Shown here one piece after another: positions 2,420 to 61,887 of a DNA stretch of 64,000 nt. The DNA is taken from the NCBI RefSeq assembly GCF_001905845.1, contig NZ_LIVZ01000015.1, forward strand, positions 62,001 through 126,000, written 5' to 3'. This DNA is from Streptomyces sp. TSRI0107. GTDB taxonomy: Bacteria > Actinomycetota > Actinomycetes > Streptomycetales > Streptomycetaceae. How positions within the stretch are numbered: the stretch's first letter is position 1; every line of letters begins with the position of its first letter. The position numbers and the translations under genes are program-made. The notes under the pieces were generated by a model. The model made no database searches, was not told the origin of the DNA, and saw nothing but the letters and a program-made list of their open reading frames with translations.

Positions 2420-2926
2420 TCAGAGCAGGGCGGGCGCCGCCATCTCGTCGGCGACCCGTGCCGCCCACCGTTCGATGCCGGGGAAGTCCCGGAAGTCGCC
2501 GCCCCTGCCGTCGCGCAGGATCATCCGGGCGACGAAGCCTCGCGCGCCCTCCTCCAGGCAGCCGCCGAACGTGATGTGCTCCTGCGCGTCGAGCCGGACC
2601 ATGACGCGCCGCACGCCGGGCACGGGCGGAATGTCCCGCTCGCCGGCCGAGGAGTCCAGCGGGCCGCTGCTGAACAGCCACAGCGGACGCTCGGCCAGGG
2701 CGCGGCGGTGCCGCCGGACGAACCGGCGGGCGTCCTTGTGCCACCGCCCGGCGTACAGGGCGCCGCCGACCACGACGGCGTCGTACGGCGTGACGTCGTC
2801 GACCGCGCCGGCCGGCGCCGTCTCCACGGTGAGCCCCCGCGTGCGCAGCACATCGGCGACGGTCTCGGCGATGCGCGCGGTGGAGCCGTTCGTCGTGCCG
2901 TAGGCGACCAGCACTTTCTCCGTCAT
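2420..2926 (-). CDS. Flavodoxin-domain protein
   Basis: A 168-residue protein of the flavodoxin/HemG-like class. The N terminus VLVAYGTTNGSTARIAE carries the phosphate-binding loop (T/S-x-T-G/N-x-T pattern) that holds FMN, followed by the alternating beta-alpha order of the fold (YDAVVVGGALYAGRW near residue 50). It is expected to be a cytoplasmic electron carrier or FMN-dependent reductase. Similar proteins are common members of streptomycete hypoxia islands. It lies 42 bases downstream of the GNAT/acyl-CoA synthetase gene on the same strand, so the two are probably cotranscribed. Partner proteins are unknown. Confidence 0.88.
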   Translation of the reverse strand: MTEKVLVAYGTTNGSTARIAETVADVLRTRGLTVETAPAGAVDDVTPYDAVVVGGALYAGRWHKDARRFVRRHRRALAERPLWLFSSGPLDSSAGERDIPPVPGVRRVMVRLDAQEHITFGGCLEEGARGFVARMILRDGRGGDFRDFPGIERWAARVADEMAAPALL

Positions 2927-2968: not shown

Positions 2969-5662
2969 TCAGCGGAGCCGGCGCAGATACGGGTCCCGGG
3001 GCCGGCGGGGCAGCAGGCGCAGCCGCGCGTCCAGCACGGTGACGCCGCCCGGGGTGGCGAGTACGGGGTTGAAGTCGGCCTCCGCCAGCTGCGGCAGGTC
3101 GCTCGCCATGCGGGACAGCCGCAGCAGCAGCCCTTCGAGTCCTTCCAGGTCGACGGGGCCGCCGCCCTGAGCCCCGACCAGCAGCGGAGCGCAGCGCGGA
3201 GAGAGGATCAGGTCGTGGACGTCGTGGTCGGTGAGCGGGGCCAGGCGCGCCGCGTGGTCGGCGAGCACCTCGGTGGCGGTGCCGCCGAGACCGAACAGCA
3301 CCAGCGGACCGAACACCTCGTCCTGGACCACACCGGCGAACAGTTCGGTGCCGCGGTCGGCGAGCGGCTGGACGACCACGCCGGTGAGCAGGCCCTCGAA
3401 CCGGGTCTCCAGGTCCCGGTAGGCGGCCCGCACCTGGGCGTCTCCCCGGAGGTCCAGATGTACGGCGTGCTGCGCGCTCTTGTGCACCAGCCCGGGCCAG
3501 TAGCCCTTCATCACCACACGGCCGTCGGCGCCGCGCAGCCGCTCGGCGGCGCGGGCCGCCGCGTCCTCGGTGTCGGCCCAGGCCCAGGGCAGTTGGGGAA
3601 TGCCGTAACACTCCAGGAGCGCGGCGCCGCGGTGGGGGTCGAGCCAGCCGCCGTCCGGGTGGGTGGCGAGGTAGGCGTCGACCGCGCGGCGGGCCCGTTC
3701 CGTCTCCACGTCGGGGAGAGCGGGAACGGTGCCGACGGGCCTCGCCAGCCAGGCCGCCCGGCGAGCGGCGTGGGCCAGGGCGCGTGCGGCGGCCTGGGGT
3801 TCCGCGTACGACGGTACGGTCGTGCCGCCGGACGCCGGCAGCAGCTCGACCGGGAGGGCCTGCTCCAGCCGGATCGCGACGACCGGCTTCAGCGCGCGGC
3901 CGGGGGCCTGTGTGACGGCCCGCAGGAGGTCGTCGCCGGTCGCCGCGGCCACGGCGGTGGGGACCAGGGCGACGAGGACGGCGTCGACACCGTCGTACCG
4001 CATGATCCGGTCCAGGCAGTCACCGAGCTGTTCCTCGCCGACGGCGGCGGTGGTGTCGAGGGGGTTGCCCACGGCCGCGCCCTCGGGCAGGACCGCGCGC
4101 AGGTCCTCGGCCAGTCCGGGAGTGGGCGGCGGCAGGACCAGGCCGGCCTCCGCGCAGGCGTCCGCGGCGAGGACTCCGGCACCGCCCGCGTTGGTGACGA
4201 TCGCGACGCGCGGCCCGGCGGGCAGCGGCTGGGAGTGCAGCAGAGCGGCGGTCTCCAGGAGTTCCCCGATCGAGTGGGTGGCGGTGATCCCCGCCTGTGT
4301 GAACAGGGCCCGCCGGGTCATGGTGCGGGTGGCCGCGGCGGCGGTGTGCGAGGCCGCGGCACGCCGGCCGGCCTCCGTGCGTCCGGCGTCGACGGTGAGC
4401 ACGGGTATGCGGCGGGTGACGCGTCGGGCGGTGCGGGAGAAGGCGCGCGGGTTGCCGAAGGACTCCAGGTGCAGCAGGGCGAGGTCGGTGCGGCCGTCGC
4501 ACTCCCACCACTGGAGCAGGTCGTTGCCGCTGACGTCGTACTTCTCGCCCAGGGACGCGAAGGACGACACGCCGATGCCGAGCCGGGACAGCCCGTCGAG
4601 CAGGGCGATGCCCACGCCGCCCGACTGGACGGCGACACCCGCGGTGCCGGGGCGCGGATGGTCGGCGGCGAAGGTGGCGTCGAGACGGACGCCGGGCTCG
4701 GTGTTGGAGACGCCGAGGCAGTTGGGCCCGACCAGGCGCATGCTGTACGCGCGGCAGGCCGAGACGAGGTCCCGCGCCTGGCCGGCGTCGAGCCCCGCGG
4801 TGACGACGAGCAGCGCGCGTGCTCCCGCCTCTCCGCACTGCTGCGCGACGACGGGAACCGATGCGGCCGGCACGGCGACGACCACGAGATCGGGCGGGAC
4901 GGGCAGCGCGGTCACCGACGGGTGGCACGGCACGCCGAACAGGGACGTGGCAGCGGGGTTGACCGCGAACAAGCGGCCGTTGAAGCGCCCGGCCTTCAGA
5001 TGGTGCAGGATGGCCCGGCCGACCGAGCCCGGCCTGCGCCCGGCACCCACCACGGCGACGGTGCGCGGTCGCAGGAGGGCCTGGAGGCTGGCGGTGCCGG
5101 CGGCCCGTCCGCGTTCCTCCACGGCCGACAGGTAGGTGTCACTCGTGTCGAGCGCGATGCTGCAGCGCACCTCGGGGCCGTCGAAGTGCCGGGCCGTTCG
5201 CAGTCCCAGGTCGGCGAAGAGTTTCAGCACCGGGCGGTTCTCGCTGAGCGCGTCGGCCGTGAAGTCCGTGACGCCGTCGGCACGGGCGGCCGAGACCAGA
5301 TGCTCCATGAGCAGCGTGCCCACCCCGCGGTGGTGGAGCCCGTCGGCGACGGCTATGGAGATGTCGGCCTCACCGCCGGTGCCGCCCGTGTCGTATTCGG
5401 CCAGCCCGATCACCCGTCCCTGCCGCTCGGCGAGCAGGGCGCGGTATCCGGGGCGCGGCGGGGCGCAGGCGCGGTCGGCGGCCGCACGCGCGGATGCGGG
5501 ATTGGCCGAGAAGAAGCGCAGTCGCAGGTTGTCCGGGGACATCTGCTCGTACAGGGCCCGCAGTTGAGCGTGGTCGTCGGGTTCCACCGGGCGGATGCAC
5601 ACGGTGGTGCCGTCCATGAGCAGGGCGTGGACCGGTGCGCGGGTGATCGTCTCGTCCCTCAT
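2969..5662 (-). CDS. GNAT acetyltransferase fused to NDP-forming acyl-CoA synthetase
   Basis: An 897-residue fusion. Residues about 14-175 form a GNAT domain (QGRVIGLAEYD and GVGTLLMEHL are the acetyl-CoA-binding strand and loop). A CoA-binding Rossmann domain follows (VAVVGAGRRPGSVG, about 195-290), then two succinyl-CoA-synthetase-like domains and a C-terminal ATP-grasp region (about 640-897). The architecture matches the actinobacterial protein lysine acetyltransferases that control acetyl-CoA synthetase. Unlike enterobacterial Pat, where the catalytic histidine of the synthetase part is reported lost, both candidate histidines remain (ASHTAAA and LVHKSAQ). Genuine acyl-CoA synthetase activity is therefore possible. 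Two DevR-like inverted repeats lie 147-235 bases upstream. The flavodoxin gene follows. Confidence 0.92.
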   Translation of the reverse strand: MRDETITRAPVHALLMDGTTVCIRPVEPDDHAQLRALYEQMSPDNLRLRFFSANPASARAAADRACAPPRPGYRALLAERQGRVIGLAEYDTGGTGGEADISIAVADGLHHRGVGTLLMEHLVSAARADGVTDFTADALSENRPVLKLFADLGLRTARHFDGPEVRCSIALDTSDTYLSAVEERGRAAGTASLQALLRPRTVAVVGAGRRPGSVGRAILHHLKAGRFNGRLFAVNPAATSLFGVPCHPSVTALPVPPDLVVVAVPAASVPVVAQQCGEAGARALLVVTAGLDAGQARDLVSACRAYSMRLVGPNCLGVSNTEPGVRLDATFAADHPRPGTAGVAVQSGGVGIALLDGLSRLGIGVSSFASLGEKYDVSGNDLLQWWECDGRTDLALLHLESFGNPRAFSRTARRVTRRIPVLTVDAGRTEAGRRAAASHTAAAATRTMTRRALFTQAGITATHSIGELLETAALLHSQPLPAGPRVAIVTNAGGAGVLAADACAEAGLVLPPPTPGLAEDLRAVLPEGAAVGNPLDTTAAVGEEQLGDCLDRIMRYDGVDAVLVALVPTAVAAATGDDLLRAVTQAPGRALKPVVAIRLEQALPVELLPASGGTTVPSYAEPQAAARALAHAARRAAWLARPVGTVPALPDVETERARRAVDAYLATHPDGGWLDPHRGAALLECYGIPQLPWAWADTEDAAARAAERLRGADGRVVMKGYWPGLVHKSAQHAVHLDLRGDAQVRAAYRDLETRFEGLLTGVVVQPLADRGTELFAGVVQDEVFGPLVLFGLGGTATEVLADHAARLAPLTDHDVHDLILSPRCAPLLVGAQGGGPVDLEGLEGLLLRLSRMASDLPQLAEADFNPVLATPGGVTVLDARLRLLPRRPRDPYLRRLR

Positions 5663-5808
5663 CGCCGATTCTCCTCACCGCTTGTCATTGGTGCGGCACC
5701 GAGCGGGCGCCCCGGCAAGACCCGGCTGCGCCGATGGAGCGGTTCATCGCGCTGCCTCCTCGTCGGCGGTCTGCTTCCAGCATCGCGGCGGGCCGAGCGT
5801 GTCCACAG

Positions 5809-5821
5809 GGGCCGAATGTCC
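5809..5821. promoter_or_regulatory. DevR/OsdR-like inverted repeat, box 1
   Basis: GGGCCGAATGTCC fits the mycobacterial DosR/DevR pattern GGGAC-NWWN-GTCC with one difference (A to C). It lies 147 bases upstream of the GNAT/synthetase start. Streptomycete OsdR controls comparable stress islands, so this is a plausible activator site. This is inferred from motif and context only. Confidence 0.5.
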
Positions 5822-5883
5822 TGGGCCGAGACCGACCGGCCCACCCCGGCTGGGCCCGGCATCGGCCGTACGGCGTCGGCGCA

Positions 5884-5897
5884 GGGCCGTACGTCCC
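5884..5897. promoter_or_regulatory. DevR/OsdR-like inverted repeat, box 2
   Basis: GGGCCGTACGTCCC is a near-perfect inverted repeat with TA at the centre and matches the GGGNC-N4-GNCCC form. It is centred 75-76 bases from box 1, about seven helical turns, so two dimers could bind the same face of the DNA. The likely target is the leftward gene starting at 5662. Confidence 0.55.
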
Positions 5898-6172
5898 GCC
5901 GCGCGCCTCTTGCCACCACGGGGCTCGTGCGGTGTGCTTGAAGTGACGGGAAGGACCTGACTTGGACGCGGGGAAGCGGCTCGCGGCCGCGCACCGCGCA
6001 ATGAGGATCCGCAAGAAGCGGGTGAGTCCTTCCCGCCTTTCACGCCGCGCTCATGGATCCGGAGGTCCGGAGCCCCGTCACCCCGCGCCACTGCCGGCGC
6101 CTCGACACTCCGACGTGCCTGTGGCCGTTGCCGTGGCCGCCGACGTACACACGAGCACTCCGCCGTCGGCGA

Positions 6173-7243
6173 TCAGTGCGTCACGACGGCCACTTCCTCA
6201 TGCGACTCCCCGCCGAGCACCACCTTGAGCGCACCGGTGTCGGCGGCCCGAGCGAACACGTCGTACGCCTCCGCCATGTGCTGCAGCGGGAAGGTGTGGG
6301 TGACCAGTGCGGGGGCGGGCAGCCGGCCGGCGGCCGCCATCCGCAGCAGGGTGGGCGTCGAGTGGGTGTCGACGAGACCGGTGGTGAGGGTCAGGTTCTT
6401 GATCCACAATTCTTCCAGGTGCAGTTGCGCCGGCTTGCCGTGAACGCCGACGTTGGCGACGTGGCCGCCGGGCCGCACCATGCGGGTGCACAGCTCGAAG
6501 GCCTCGGGCAGTCCGACGGCCTCGATGACCACGTCCGCGCCGAGCCCGTCCGTCAGATCGGCGATCAGCTCCTCGGGCGCCTCCGCCGGGTCCGCCACCG
6601 CGTCGGCGCCCAGCTTCCGCGCGGCCTCCCGTCGCGCCGCGGCCGGGTCGACGGCGAGGATCCGCTCGGGGCTGAACAGCCGTGCGGTGGCGATGGCCGC
6701 GAGGCCGATGGGCCCGGCGCCGACGACGGCGACGGTGTCGCCGGGCCGTACTCGTCCGTTCAGGACGCCGACCTCGTAGGCGGTCGGGAAGATGTCCGCC
6801 AGGAGTACGGCGTCCCGGTCCGGGAGCGTGGCGGGCAGCGGGTGCACCGACAGGTCGGCGTGCGGGACGCGCACGTACTCCGCCTGGGTGCCGTCGATCA
6901 GATGGCCGAGGATCCAGCCTCCGCCGCCCCGGCACTGGCCGTACATCGCCTTACGGCAGTAGGCGCAGCGCCCGCAGGCCGTGATGCAGGAGATCAGGAC
7001 CCGGTCGCCCGGGCGGACCGAACGCACGTCGGCACCGGTCTCCACGACCTCGCCCACCGCCTCGTGCCCGAGAACCGTGCCGGGGCGCACCTCAGGCACG
7101 TCGCCCTTGAGGATGTGCAGGTCGGTGCCGCAGATGGTGACGGAGTCGACGCGCACGATCGCGTCGGTGGGCTCCTTCACGTCCGGATCCGCCACGTCCT
7201 CCCAGGAGGACTGGCCGGGGCCGTGGAACACGTAGCCCTTCAT
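6173..7243 (-). CDS. Zinc-dependent alcohol dehydrogenase, second copy
   Basis: A 356-residue MDR dehydrogenase, clearly paralogous to the enzyme at 303-1334 (MKGYVFHGPGQ against MRALVYHGPGQ). The catalytic zinc ligands are in ICGTDLH and GHEAVGE, the structural-zinc cysteines in CGRCAYC...C, and the NAD fold in VGAGPIG. I start it at the ATG at 7243, preceded by GGAAGG. A start 30 codons upstream would add residues that are not family-like. It is divergent from the copper-binding gene at 7399. A role as a fermentative or detoxifying dehydrogenase under low oxygen is likely from context; the substrate is unknown. Confidence 0.93.
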   Translation of the reverse strand: MKGYVFHGPGQSSWEDVADPDVKEPTDAIVRVDSVTICGTDLHILKGDVPEVRPGTVLGHEAVGEVVETGADVRSVRPGDRVLISCITACGRCAYCRKAMYGQCRGGGGWILGHLIDGTQAEYVRVPHADLSVHPLPATLPDRDAVLLADIFPTAYEVGVLNGRVRPGDTVAVVGAGPIGLAAIATARLFSPERILAVDPAAARREAARKLGADAVADPAEAPEELIADLTDGLGADVVIEAVGLPEAFELCTRMVRPGGHVANVGVHGKPAQLHLEELWIKNLTLTTGLVDTHSTPTLLRMAAAGRLPAPALVTHTFPLQHMAEAYDVFARAADTGALKVVLGGESHEEVAVVTH

Positions 7244-7398
7244 GATGATCCTTCCTGGATTCACGCACAGAGCTTTGCTTGCCCCCTCATCCAGCTTGTG
7301 CCGTGACGCGGCGCCTCGCTTGGGCACCGTCACGTTTGCGGCTGCGTGCTCGTGCCCACCCGGCAGACGCGAACGGCATCCGGAGGAGGCGATCCACG

Positions 7399-55123: not shown

Positions 55124-55897
55124 TCATGCCTCGCCCGCCGCGAGGAACATCGGCAGGGCCGCGAACAGCCGGTCCTGTCCGGCACGAACGCGCTGCTCGG
55201 CGATCCAGCCGGCGGCGCGTTCGGCGTCCACGGCGCCCGAGTCCGCCACGGTGCGGGCCAGGGCGGTCACGAAGGGCAGGGCGTCCGGTCCGGTGAGGAC
55301 CGTCGTGCGGACCTCGACGGTTACGTCCCGGAAGCCCGCGTCCTTCAGCAGCGTGCGGTGGCGGCGGGCCGCGCGGGGCGCGGTGACCAGGTCGGCGCGG
55401 GCGTGCACCAGGGTGCGGGTGAGTGCGGGGTCGTCGGAGTCGATGACGAAGGCGTCCCAGTCCTGGGCGGCCAGCACCGCCCGGCCACCGGGCACGAGCA
55501 CGCGGCGGGCCTCGGCGAGGGCGCGGTCGGGGGCGGCGAGTTCGTGGAAGACCTTGTCGGCGCGGTAGCCGTCGACCGAGCGGTCGCCGAGCGGCAGGTC
55601 GTAGGCGTCGCCCGCCCGGAAGTCGGCGTCCGGCCACCGGGTCCGGGCGGCGGCGAGCATCCGTGCGTCCACGTCGACGCCCACCGCGGCCACGCCGCGC
55701 CGCGTCAGTTCGGCCACCGCCCGTCCGGCCCCGCAGCCGACGTCGACGACCGAGCGGGCGGCGCCCAGCAGGCCGTAGGAGAGGTTCCGCAGTTCCCGCG
55801 CGGCGGGCAGCCGGTCGGCGGCGTCGAGCCGGGCGAGGAGAGGGGCGAGGGTGTCGACGGGGCCGACGGGGAGCTTGGGAGGCTGCTGCTTAGTCAT
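55124..55897 (-). CDS. SAM-dependent methyltransferase
   Basis: A 257-residue class I methyltransferase. VVDVGCGAGRAVAEL near residue 50 is the SAM loop, AVGVDVDARMLAAAR motif II, GDAYDLPLGDRSVD motif III. It resembles the ubiE/Methyltransf_11 class; substrate unknown. It is divergent from a MerR regulator with only 55 bases between starts, so MerR probably controls it. It is convergent with the LacI gene (16-base gap). Confidence 0.9.
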   Translation of the reverse strand: MTKQQPPKLPVGPVDTLAPLLARLDAADRLPAARELRNLSYGLLGAARSVVDVGCGAGRAVAELTRRGVAAVGVDVDARMLAAARTRWPDADFRAGDAYDLPLGDRSVDGYRADKVFHELAAPDRALAEARRVLVPGGRAVLAAQDWDAFVIDSDDPALTRTLVHARADLVTAPRAARRHRTLLKDAGFRDVTVEVRTTVLTGPDALPFVTALARTVADSGAVDAERAAGWIAEQRVRAGQDRLFAALPMFLAAGEA

Positions 55898-55952
55898 GGG
55901 CGTCAGCGTGCGACTTAATGTCGGCGTGAGGTCAACCGAGCGGGACGAGACG

Positions 55953-56348
55953 ATGAGCATCGGGGCGCTGGCCGGACGCTTCGGGCTGGCCGCGCACGTG
56001 CTGCGGCACTGGGAGTCGGTGGGGCTGCTGACCCCGGCCCGCGACGCGGCGGGCCGACGGCGGTACGGCGCCGCCGACGTGGTGCGGGTGGGGGTGATCC
56101 TGCGGGGCAAGGAGGCGGGGCTGTCGCTGGAGGCGATCCGTACGCTCACGTCCGGTGACCATCGCGCCCGGCGGGACGTGCTGCGCCGGGAGGCGGAGGC
56201 GCTGCGGGCCCGGATCGCGGCGGCGCGGGTCTCGCTGTCGCTGGTCGAGTGCGCGCTGGGCTGCACCCACGAGGAGCTGTCGGACTGCCCCCACTTCCGG
56301 CGGCAGGTCGCCGGCCTGACGGGCTCGCTCCAGGGCGGGGCCACCTAG
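55953..56348 (+). CDS. MerR-family regulator
   Basis: A 131-residue regulator. The winged helix is MSIGALAGRFGLAAHVLRHW and onward to about residue 70. A coiled dimer helix (about 75-110) and a short Cys/His tail (CALGCTHEELSDCPHF) follow, which could bind metal or sense redox or drugs. The ATG at 55953 follows GGGACGAG; a GTG at 55926 is possible. Its stop codon TAG is shared with the left end of the inverted-repeat element that follows, so its C terminus may differ from the ancestral one. Confidence 0.9.
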   Translation: MSIGALAGRFGLAAHVLRHWESVGLLTPARDAAGRRRYGAADVVRVGVILRGKEAGLSLEAIRTLTSGDHRARRDVLRREAEALRARIAAARVSLSLVECALGCTHEELSDCPHFRRQVAGLTGSLQGGAT

Positions 56349-61452: not shown

Positions 61453-61887
61453 TCAGGAACTGCTGGTGGAACAGGCGGGGCACAGGCCCCAGTAGATGAC
61501 CTCGGCCTCGTCGATCGCGAAGCCGCGGTCATCCGACGCGGTCAGGCAGGGGGCGTGGCCGACGGCGCAGTCGACGTCGGCGACGACGCCGCACGAACGG
61601 CACACGAGGTGGTGGTGGTTGTCCCCGACCCGGCCCTCGTAGAGGGTCGGGCTGCCGGGGGGCTCGATGCGGCGGACGAGTCCCGCCGAGGCGAGCGCGT
61701 GCAGTGCCTCGTACACGGCTTGCAGCGAGATGTGGCCCACGCGCTCGCGCACTCCGGCGGCGATCGCCTCGACGCCGAGGTGGTCGCCGGCGCGCACGGT
61801 CTCGAGCATCGCGACGCGGGCGGCCGTCACCCGCAGGCCGGCACCGCGCAGTTCGTCGGCGGTGGTCGGGGGCCCGGATGCGGTCAT
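61453..61887 (-). CDS. furA: Fur-family regulator of katG (FurA/CatR)
   Basis: A 144-residue Fur-family repressor. The winged helix is about 15-85 (LRGAGLRVTAARVAMLETV; HISLQAVYEALHALASAGLV). The metal and dimer domain holds HHHLVCRSCGVVADVDC and the C-terminal CPAC, which together form the structural-zinc CxxC pairs. In streptomycetes the homologue represses its own furA-katG operon and is released by peroxide. The ATG at 61887 is used; a TTG three codons earlier is possible. Upstream lies a very AT-rich promoter. Confidence 0.95.
   Translation of the reverse strand: MTASGPPTTADELRGAGLRVTAARVAMLETVRAGDHLGVEAIAAGVRERVGHISLQAVYEALHALASAGLVRRIEPPGSPTLYEGRVGDNHHHLVCRSCGVVADVDCAVGHAPCLTASDDRGFAIDEAEVIYWGLCPACSTSSS

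Follow-up and report, generated by a model that had tools for sequence, protein, structure and literature searches.

The promoter of a gene that encodes an 897-residue fusion protein, for which we coined the working name GNAT-ACS, is best read from its sequence as a new target of the transcriptional regulator OsdR and a member of the known OsdR/DevR regulon. We consider it highly probable that this promoter is activated by OsdR, a protein of the DevR/DosR type, and the flavodoxin gene that lies behind GNAT-ACS would probably be activated with it. By analogy with the biology of OsdR and DevR, GNAT-ACS is probably turned on when oxygen runs low. The gene was analyzed within a window of 64,000 nucleotides, the whole stretch of DNA under study, which corresponds to C7:62001-126000 (contig C7) of a Streptomyces-type genome of 8.74 Mb and 73% GC.

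The OsdR (SCO0204) regulon, its consensus and the classes of neighbouring genes have been published for S. coelicolor, as given in the available part of that report (PMC5069765). Its main text does not contain the terms 'acyl-CoA', 'CoA synthetase' or 'flavodoxin', and the available part of a paper on OsdR-correlated genes of S. lividans (PMC6302529) is without 'CoA synthetase', 'CoA ligase' and 'flavodoxin'. No paper naming GNAT-ACS or its promoter as an OsdR target was found in a search of openly accessible articles. As an OsdR target, GNAT-ACS would extend the dormancy-type regulon of Streptomyces by an enzyme with metabolic and protein-modifying roles, which many species keep together with the box.

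Genes of the region

The genes that surround the promoter are the following:

2420-2926, minus strand: gene of a Flavodoxin_5 protein of 168 aa, 42 bp downstream of GNAT-ACS
2969-5662, minus strand: GNAT-ACS gene, coding for a fusion of GNAT, CoA-binding, Succ_CoA_lig and ATP-grasp_5 domains (Pfam), 897 aa
5663-6172: intergenic region between the GNAT-ACS start and the end of the Zn-dehydrogenase gene
6173-7333, minus strand: Zn-dehydrogenase gene, whose 3' end faces the GNAT-ACS upstream region

Co-transcription of GNAT-ACS and the flavodoxin gene is plausible because the latter follows so closely on the same strand, and the two probably form one transcript.

OsdR boxes upstream of GNAT-ACS

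The original prediction had described two motifs similar to the DosR/DevR site in this intergenic region, and both were located where it placed them, GGGCCGAATGTCC at 5809-5821 and GGGCCGTACGTCCC at 5884-5897. As 16-mers they span 5808-5823 and 5883-5898, with centres at 5815.5 and 5890.5, 75 bp apart. Their resemblance to DosR/DevR-type sites was evaluated with a symmetric matrix of 16 columns, derived from the 25 S. coelicolor sequences of Table 1 of PMC5069765, sites that according to the available part of that report are mostly predicted and only in some cases tested by gel shift. Matrix scoring confirmed the match to the published OsdR consensus, the 16-nt palindrome AGGGCCGATCGGCCCT being the same as that of the S. 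coelicolor regulon (PMC5069765, available part). This palindrome is found upstream of GNAT-ACS with 16.3 bits at 5883 and, in addition, with 8.4 and 8.7 bits, the 8.4-bit copy having been overlooked in the original prediction. The sites are:

5883-5898: distal strong OsdR box (right box), AGGGCCGTACGTCCCG, 16.3 bits
5862-5877: very weak OsdR-like site, 4.5 bits, its centre 21 bp from that of the distal box; not significant alone
5828-5843: additional box, GAGACCGACCGGCCCA, 8.4 bits, at the position of the primary box of the orthologues
5808-5823: proximal OsdR box at the secondary position (left box), GGGGCCGAATGTCCTG, 8.7 bits, spaced 20 bp centre to centre from 5828-5843

The right box is the highest match to the matrix in the 64 kb window, where the runner-up reaches 12.5 bits, and it scores above every match in an own-genome background of 33 segments of 20 kb (660 kb, taken at round coordinates), which contained one match of at least 14 bits and none of at least 15 bits. 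The left box is unremarkable alone, given that about 195 matches per Mb of at least 8 bits and about 95 per Mb of at least 9 bits occur in the same genome. The frequency of sites like the left box, together with counts of the bare core that lie at or below the control, is what would favour the idea that the palindromes are chance products of a genome of 73% GC. Nonetheless, among 3000 dinucleotide shuffles of the region 5663-6172 a single one reached 16.3 bits and none carried three sites of at least 8.4 bits, which speaks against chance, as does the conservation of the box described below.

Placement of OsdR-like motifs in the genome

Bare patterns were not enriched. The loose core GGGNCNNNNGNCCC gave 8 matches in the window against 11.2 expected; across the 8.74 Mb of the genome the pattern GGGMCGWWCGKCCC, which was picked after sight of the window site and of the USP/Crp site, was found 3 times and its reversed control 4 times, and GGGMCGNNCGKCCC 43 times as compared with 92 for its reversed control. 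A further genome-wide pattern, GGGNCCNNNNGGNCCC (62 places against 103 in the control), was mis-specified and was set aside. This lack of over-representation by count is a point against the reading as an OsdR-activated promoter.

What sets the OsdR-like motifs apart in this genome is their placement, not their count. Of the three places of GGGMCGWWCGKCCC, one is the GNAT-ACS promoter, another, 10 kb away, separates a cNMP-binding gene from a USP gene, and the third is directly upstream of osdR. Four of the 43 places of GGGMCGNNCGKCCC fall within C7:57.8-67.9 kb (one of these, at 61621, scores below 9 on the matrix), and two fall at C23:349.9-354.2 kb, within 4.5 kb of osdR. A tandem of OsdR boxes that score 16.3 and 12.8 bits and are spaced by 20 bp occupies C7:57858-57893, 4.1 kb short of the window; the divergent cNMP-binding (Crp-like) and USP genes on either side of it resemble the pair SCO0168/SCO0167c in the OsdR Table 1 of S. 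coelicolor (PMC5069765, available part). The longest ORF proposed by the gene finder for the cNMP-binding gene overlaps this site, and a later start codon, selected by eye, was taken as the probable real one. Two more boxes at C7:59395-59470 (14.7 and 14.1 bits), 2.5 kb short of the window, precede an Hsp20 gene. The classes of neighbouring genes, namely the cNMP-binding/USP pair, Zn-dehydrogenases, USP, pyridoxamine oxidase and PPDK, are also like those of the S. coelicolor regulon, as far as the available part of PMC5069765 describes it.

On the contig that carries osdR, six OsdR-like boxes, five of them at steps of 22-23 bp, were observed at C23:349896-350094, about 4 kb from osdR.

Conservation of the box in orthologous promoters

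The orthologous promoters were taken from the best 80 of 104 related loci; one locus (L111) was dropped given that its gene start was missing, leaving 79 promoters. Gene starts were extrapolated where the match began past residue 1 and some of them do not fall on a start codon, which makes the distances in those loci approximate. A box scoring at least 14 bits is present no more than 350 bp upstream of the start in 71 of the 79 promoters, and in 52 of these 71 it lies at -101 to -96. The eight promoters below 14 bits comprise three with boxes of 11.2-13.1 bits at -98 or -99 and five with none above 7.5 bits. Across the 80 loci, 73 matches of at least 14 bits fall within the 250 bp upstream. 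A further 106 are spread over the rest of the flanks, where several USP, cNMP-binding, PPDK and dehydrogenase genes are located; no match of this strength was found in the first 2690 bases counted from the match start. A box some 100 bp before the start codon, as in many GNAT-ACS orthologues, is also a feature of several genes in Table 1 of PMC5069765 (available part).

A second draw, which yielded loci for 29 of 44 further matches (in L160, L165, L167 and L168 the assumed start is not a start codon), had the box in 21 of 29 loci and lacked it in 8; the count becomes 13 of 20 after removing promoters of the first set. The sequences are related, and neither set of counts is made of independent cases.

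The near-fixed place of the box in the orthologues, with none of that strength in their coding sequences, argues strongly against a chance origin, which we hold to be highly improbable. Another possibility is that GC-rich palindromes in this position form termination or RNA hairpins behind the dehydrogenase gene at 6173-7333, since the 3' end of that gene is on one side of them and GNAT-ACS on the other. A terminator scan revealed no terminator-like site in 5500-6300, and across the orthologues the spacing between box and GNAT-ACS is maintained (mostly near -99) whereas the neighbouring genes, as recognised by 12 query proteins, differ, making a hairpin function exceedingly improbable. The reading as OsdR sites, as put forward in the original prediction, is in turn backed by the conserved box and by the presence of both an OsdR orthologue and an OsdK-like kinase in the genome.

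Architecture of the promoter

For the analysis of the layout, 66 promoters were chosen and aligned on a box of at least 13 bits, so that part of the conservation within the box follows from this choice of rows; the same does not apply to the fixed position of the box or to the downstream elements. In the 66 aligned promoters the box is followed by a second, degenerate box (about CCCGGACAGCCCATGGG) and then by about CTGGAYGCTCGAAGTG. In 57 of 74 promoters the distance from the start of the box to that of a GGAYGCT-like element is 59-61 bp. What the orthologues conserve is a unit of three parts: the primary box; a second box, degenerate, at some 22-24 bp from it; and, at a distance of about 60 bp from the first, a -10-like element.

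In the window the primary position corresponds to 5828-5843 and the secondary position to 5808-5823, 20 bp apart; from the primary box at 5828 to the start of CGATGCTGGAAG the distance is 58 bp. By the same counting, GACGCTGGAAGCAG is found 60 bp from the 16.3-bit box of the cNMP-binding gene in the same genome. Two further elements were assigned downstream of the boxes:

5779-5784, minus strand: predicted -10 element GATGCT, then GGAAG; counterpart of the GGAYGCTNNAAG-like element in orthologous promoters
5685-5747, minus strand: leader ORF of 20 codons (MNRSIGAAGSCRGARSVPHQ), preceded by GAGGAGG as a strong ribosome site, within the longer leader

A sigma-70 scan of 5500-6300 detected nothing. 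From the -10 element a transcription start near 5772 is predicted, relative to which the centres of the boxes would lie near -43, -63 and -118. The distance from the -10-like element to the start codon is about 32 nt in the aligned orthologues and about 116 nt in the window, where the spacing between the -10-like element and the ATG of the leader ORF is roughly that of the GNAT-ACS start in the orthologues.

The original prediction had viewed its two motifs, separated by about seven helical turns, as a pair. The spacing of 75 bp is real, but the orthologues do not show it, and we rejected it as a functional unit. By sequence comparison the left box is a secondary site, the right box an additional distal site, and 5828-5843 the box that takes the conserved position. 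The window thus differs from the orthologues in that the box at the primary position is weak and a strong one lies 55 bp further upstream. A distant orthologue (L119) also has several boxes, at -234, -212 and -161; the best orthologue found is 82% identical, and no close relative was found in which the arrangement of a distal box and a weak box at 5828 could be compared.

DevR promoters have been described, in the available part of PMC3029386, as carrying closely packed sites to which binding is cooperative, the proximal one lying over the -35 element, and M. tuberculosis hspX is reported in the available part of PMC7018068 to have a distal primary site together with proximal primary and secondary ones (sites P1, S and P2). 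This packed layout with the proximal site over the -35 region fits the window, its start site being a predicted one. As far as these two sources are available, the predicted sites of the GNAT-ACS promoter resemble those of hspX and other DevR promoters in number (at least two), close packing and unequal strength, with the proximal one over what would be the -35 region, and differ from them by GC-richer base preferences, by the weakness of the two proximal sites, and in that they are predicted (PMC3029386, PMC7018068). The layout may be used to seek further OsdR targets.

OsdR and its putative kinase

The genome encodes a DevR orthologue at C23:353394-354041 that is 62% identical to M. tuberculosis DevR, the next paralogue reaching 43%, and a GAF-GAF-HisKA_3-HATPase kinase (OsdK-like) follows it; both assignments come from sequence matches. 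In contrast to S. coelicolor, osdR is on a contig other than that of the window.

Many DevR-like sequences are present in the genome (73 matches at E <= 0.001, several of them regulators 38-43% identical to DevR), and this abundance is the reason to ask if the boxes are bound by another response regulator of the NarL/LuxR type from the same genome and not by OsdR. We judge this improbable, in view of the single clear DevR orthologue, of its helix EKTVKN, which is identical to that of DevR, and of the perfect box AGGGCCGTTCGGCCCT just upstream of osdR, which at 21.2 bits is the highest-scoring box in the own-genome sequence that was scanned.

The distribution of both genes was examined in 150 Streptomyces genomes, 41 of which carry a GNAT-ACS match of E <= 1e-150. 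With E <= 1e-75 as the limit, an OsdR relative is present in all 41 and in 98 of the other 109; at about 1e-95, a cut set post hoc, it is present in 40 of 41 as compared with 64 of 109, one of these 64 (G059, 1.2e-95) lying on the cut. An OsdR-like gene is within 25 kb of GNAT-ACS in at least 20 of the 41 genomes, a figure that comes from related genomes and has no chance expectation attached.

A proposed mode of activation

Activation of GNAT-ACS by OsdR would proceed as follows. As oxygen falls, the OsdK-type sensor kinase would phosphorylate OsdR, which would then bind cooperatively to the two proximal boxes in tandem at 5828-5843 and 5808-5823, centred by prediction near -63 and -43, and also to the stronger distal box at 5883-5898, centred near -118. 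Overlap of the proximal site with the -35 region would let OsdR help RNA polymerase at the weak -10 element GATGCT. Under low-oxygen stress the product would serve to acetylate proteins, to make ATP as an ADP-forming acyl-CoA ligase, or to do both.

The GNAT-ACS enzyme

Two residues of GNAT-ACS are candidates for the catalytic histidines known from ADP-forming acyl-CoA synthetases: His439 in the alpha-like part, the putative phosphohistidine, which all 81 of 81 sequences share, and His727 in the ATP-grasp part, which 80 of 81 share. The acidic residue of the GNAT domain, presumably at the position of the catalytic Glu of SlPatA-type acetyltransferases, is Glu in 65 of 81 sequences and Asp in 16, among them the protein of the window. 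His439 aligns with the SHT motif of the ADP-forming acyl-CoA synthetase 8wzu. GNAT-ACS shares with 8wzu and 4xyl the CoA-binding, Succ_CoA_lig and ATP-grasp parts, and differs from them by its N-terminal GNAT domain and in that its activity is predicted from sequence. The fusion of an N-terminal GNAT domain to an acyl-CoA-synthetase-like part is also that of SlPatA from S. lividans (GNAT structure 4nxy; PMC4053389, available part); the window protein is a different paralogue from the SlPatA-like gene of the same genome. The latter (G000 C12:587825-590554, L170; SlPatA-like by eye on comparison with 4nxy) is the only other such fusion at E <= 1e-10 in the genome, is 37-40% identical to GNAT-ACS, has Gly in place of His439, and has a best upstream OsdR score of 5.6 bits.

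Because His439 and His727 are kept in GNAT-ACS and the SlPatA-like paralogue has Gly at the first position, GNAT-ACS may be an ATP-making ADP-forming ligase as well as a protein acetyltransferase. The description 'protein-acetylating' in the original prediction covers only part of the predicted activity, since the ligase part keeps its candidate catalytic histidines.

In M. tuberculosis, the GNAT protein Rv0998 acetylates DosR at K182, and a DosR with the acetyl-mimicking change K182Q has almost no DNA binding, as stated in the available part of PMC5861037. The lysine that matches K182 is conserved in OsdR. A more speculative scheme, which we think unlikely, is that of a two-headed low-oxygen enzyme: the ligase half would convert acetyl-CoA, ADP and phosphate into acetate and ATP, and the GNAT half would acetylate proteins from the same acetyl-CoA pool, including OsdR at this lysine, thus damping its own regulon when acetyl-CoA is plentiful. 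The question that opens here is if oxygen limitation couples energy-yielding acetate formation to protein acetylation, with feedback on the regulator.

Downstream genes and other features

A flavodoxin match downstream on the same strand is present in 62 of the best 80 of 104 loci, mostly about 770 bp after GNAT-ACS, as compared with the gap of 42 bp in the window. At the one locus whose gap was read (L061:7700-8450) an ORF that is CBS-domain-like by eye lies between GNAT-ACS and the flavodoxin gene; it is absent at this place in the window. Elsewhere in the window, a tRNA-Ser gene (anticodon gct) at 55995-56082 lies inside a predicted minus-strand ORF at 55124-56344; this could mean that the ORF is a false prediction or that the tRNA gene marks a site of insertion.
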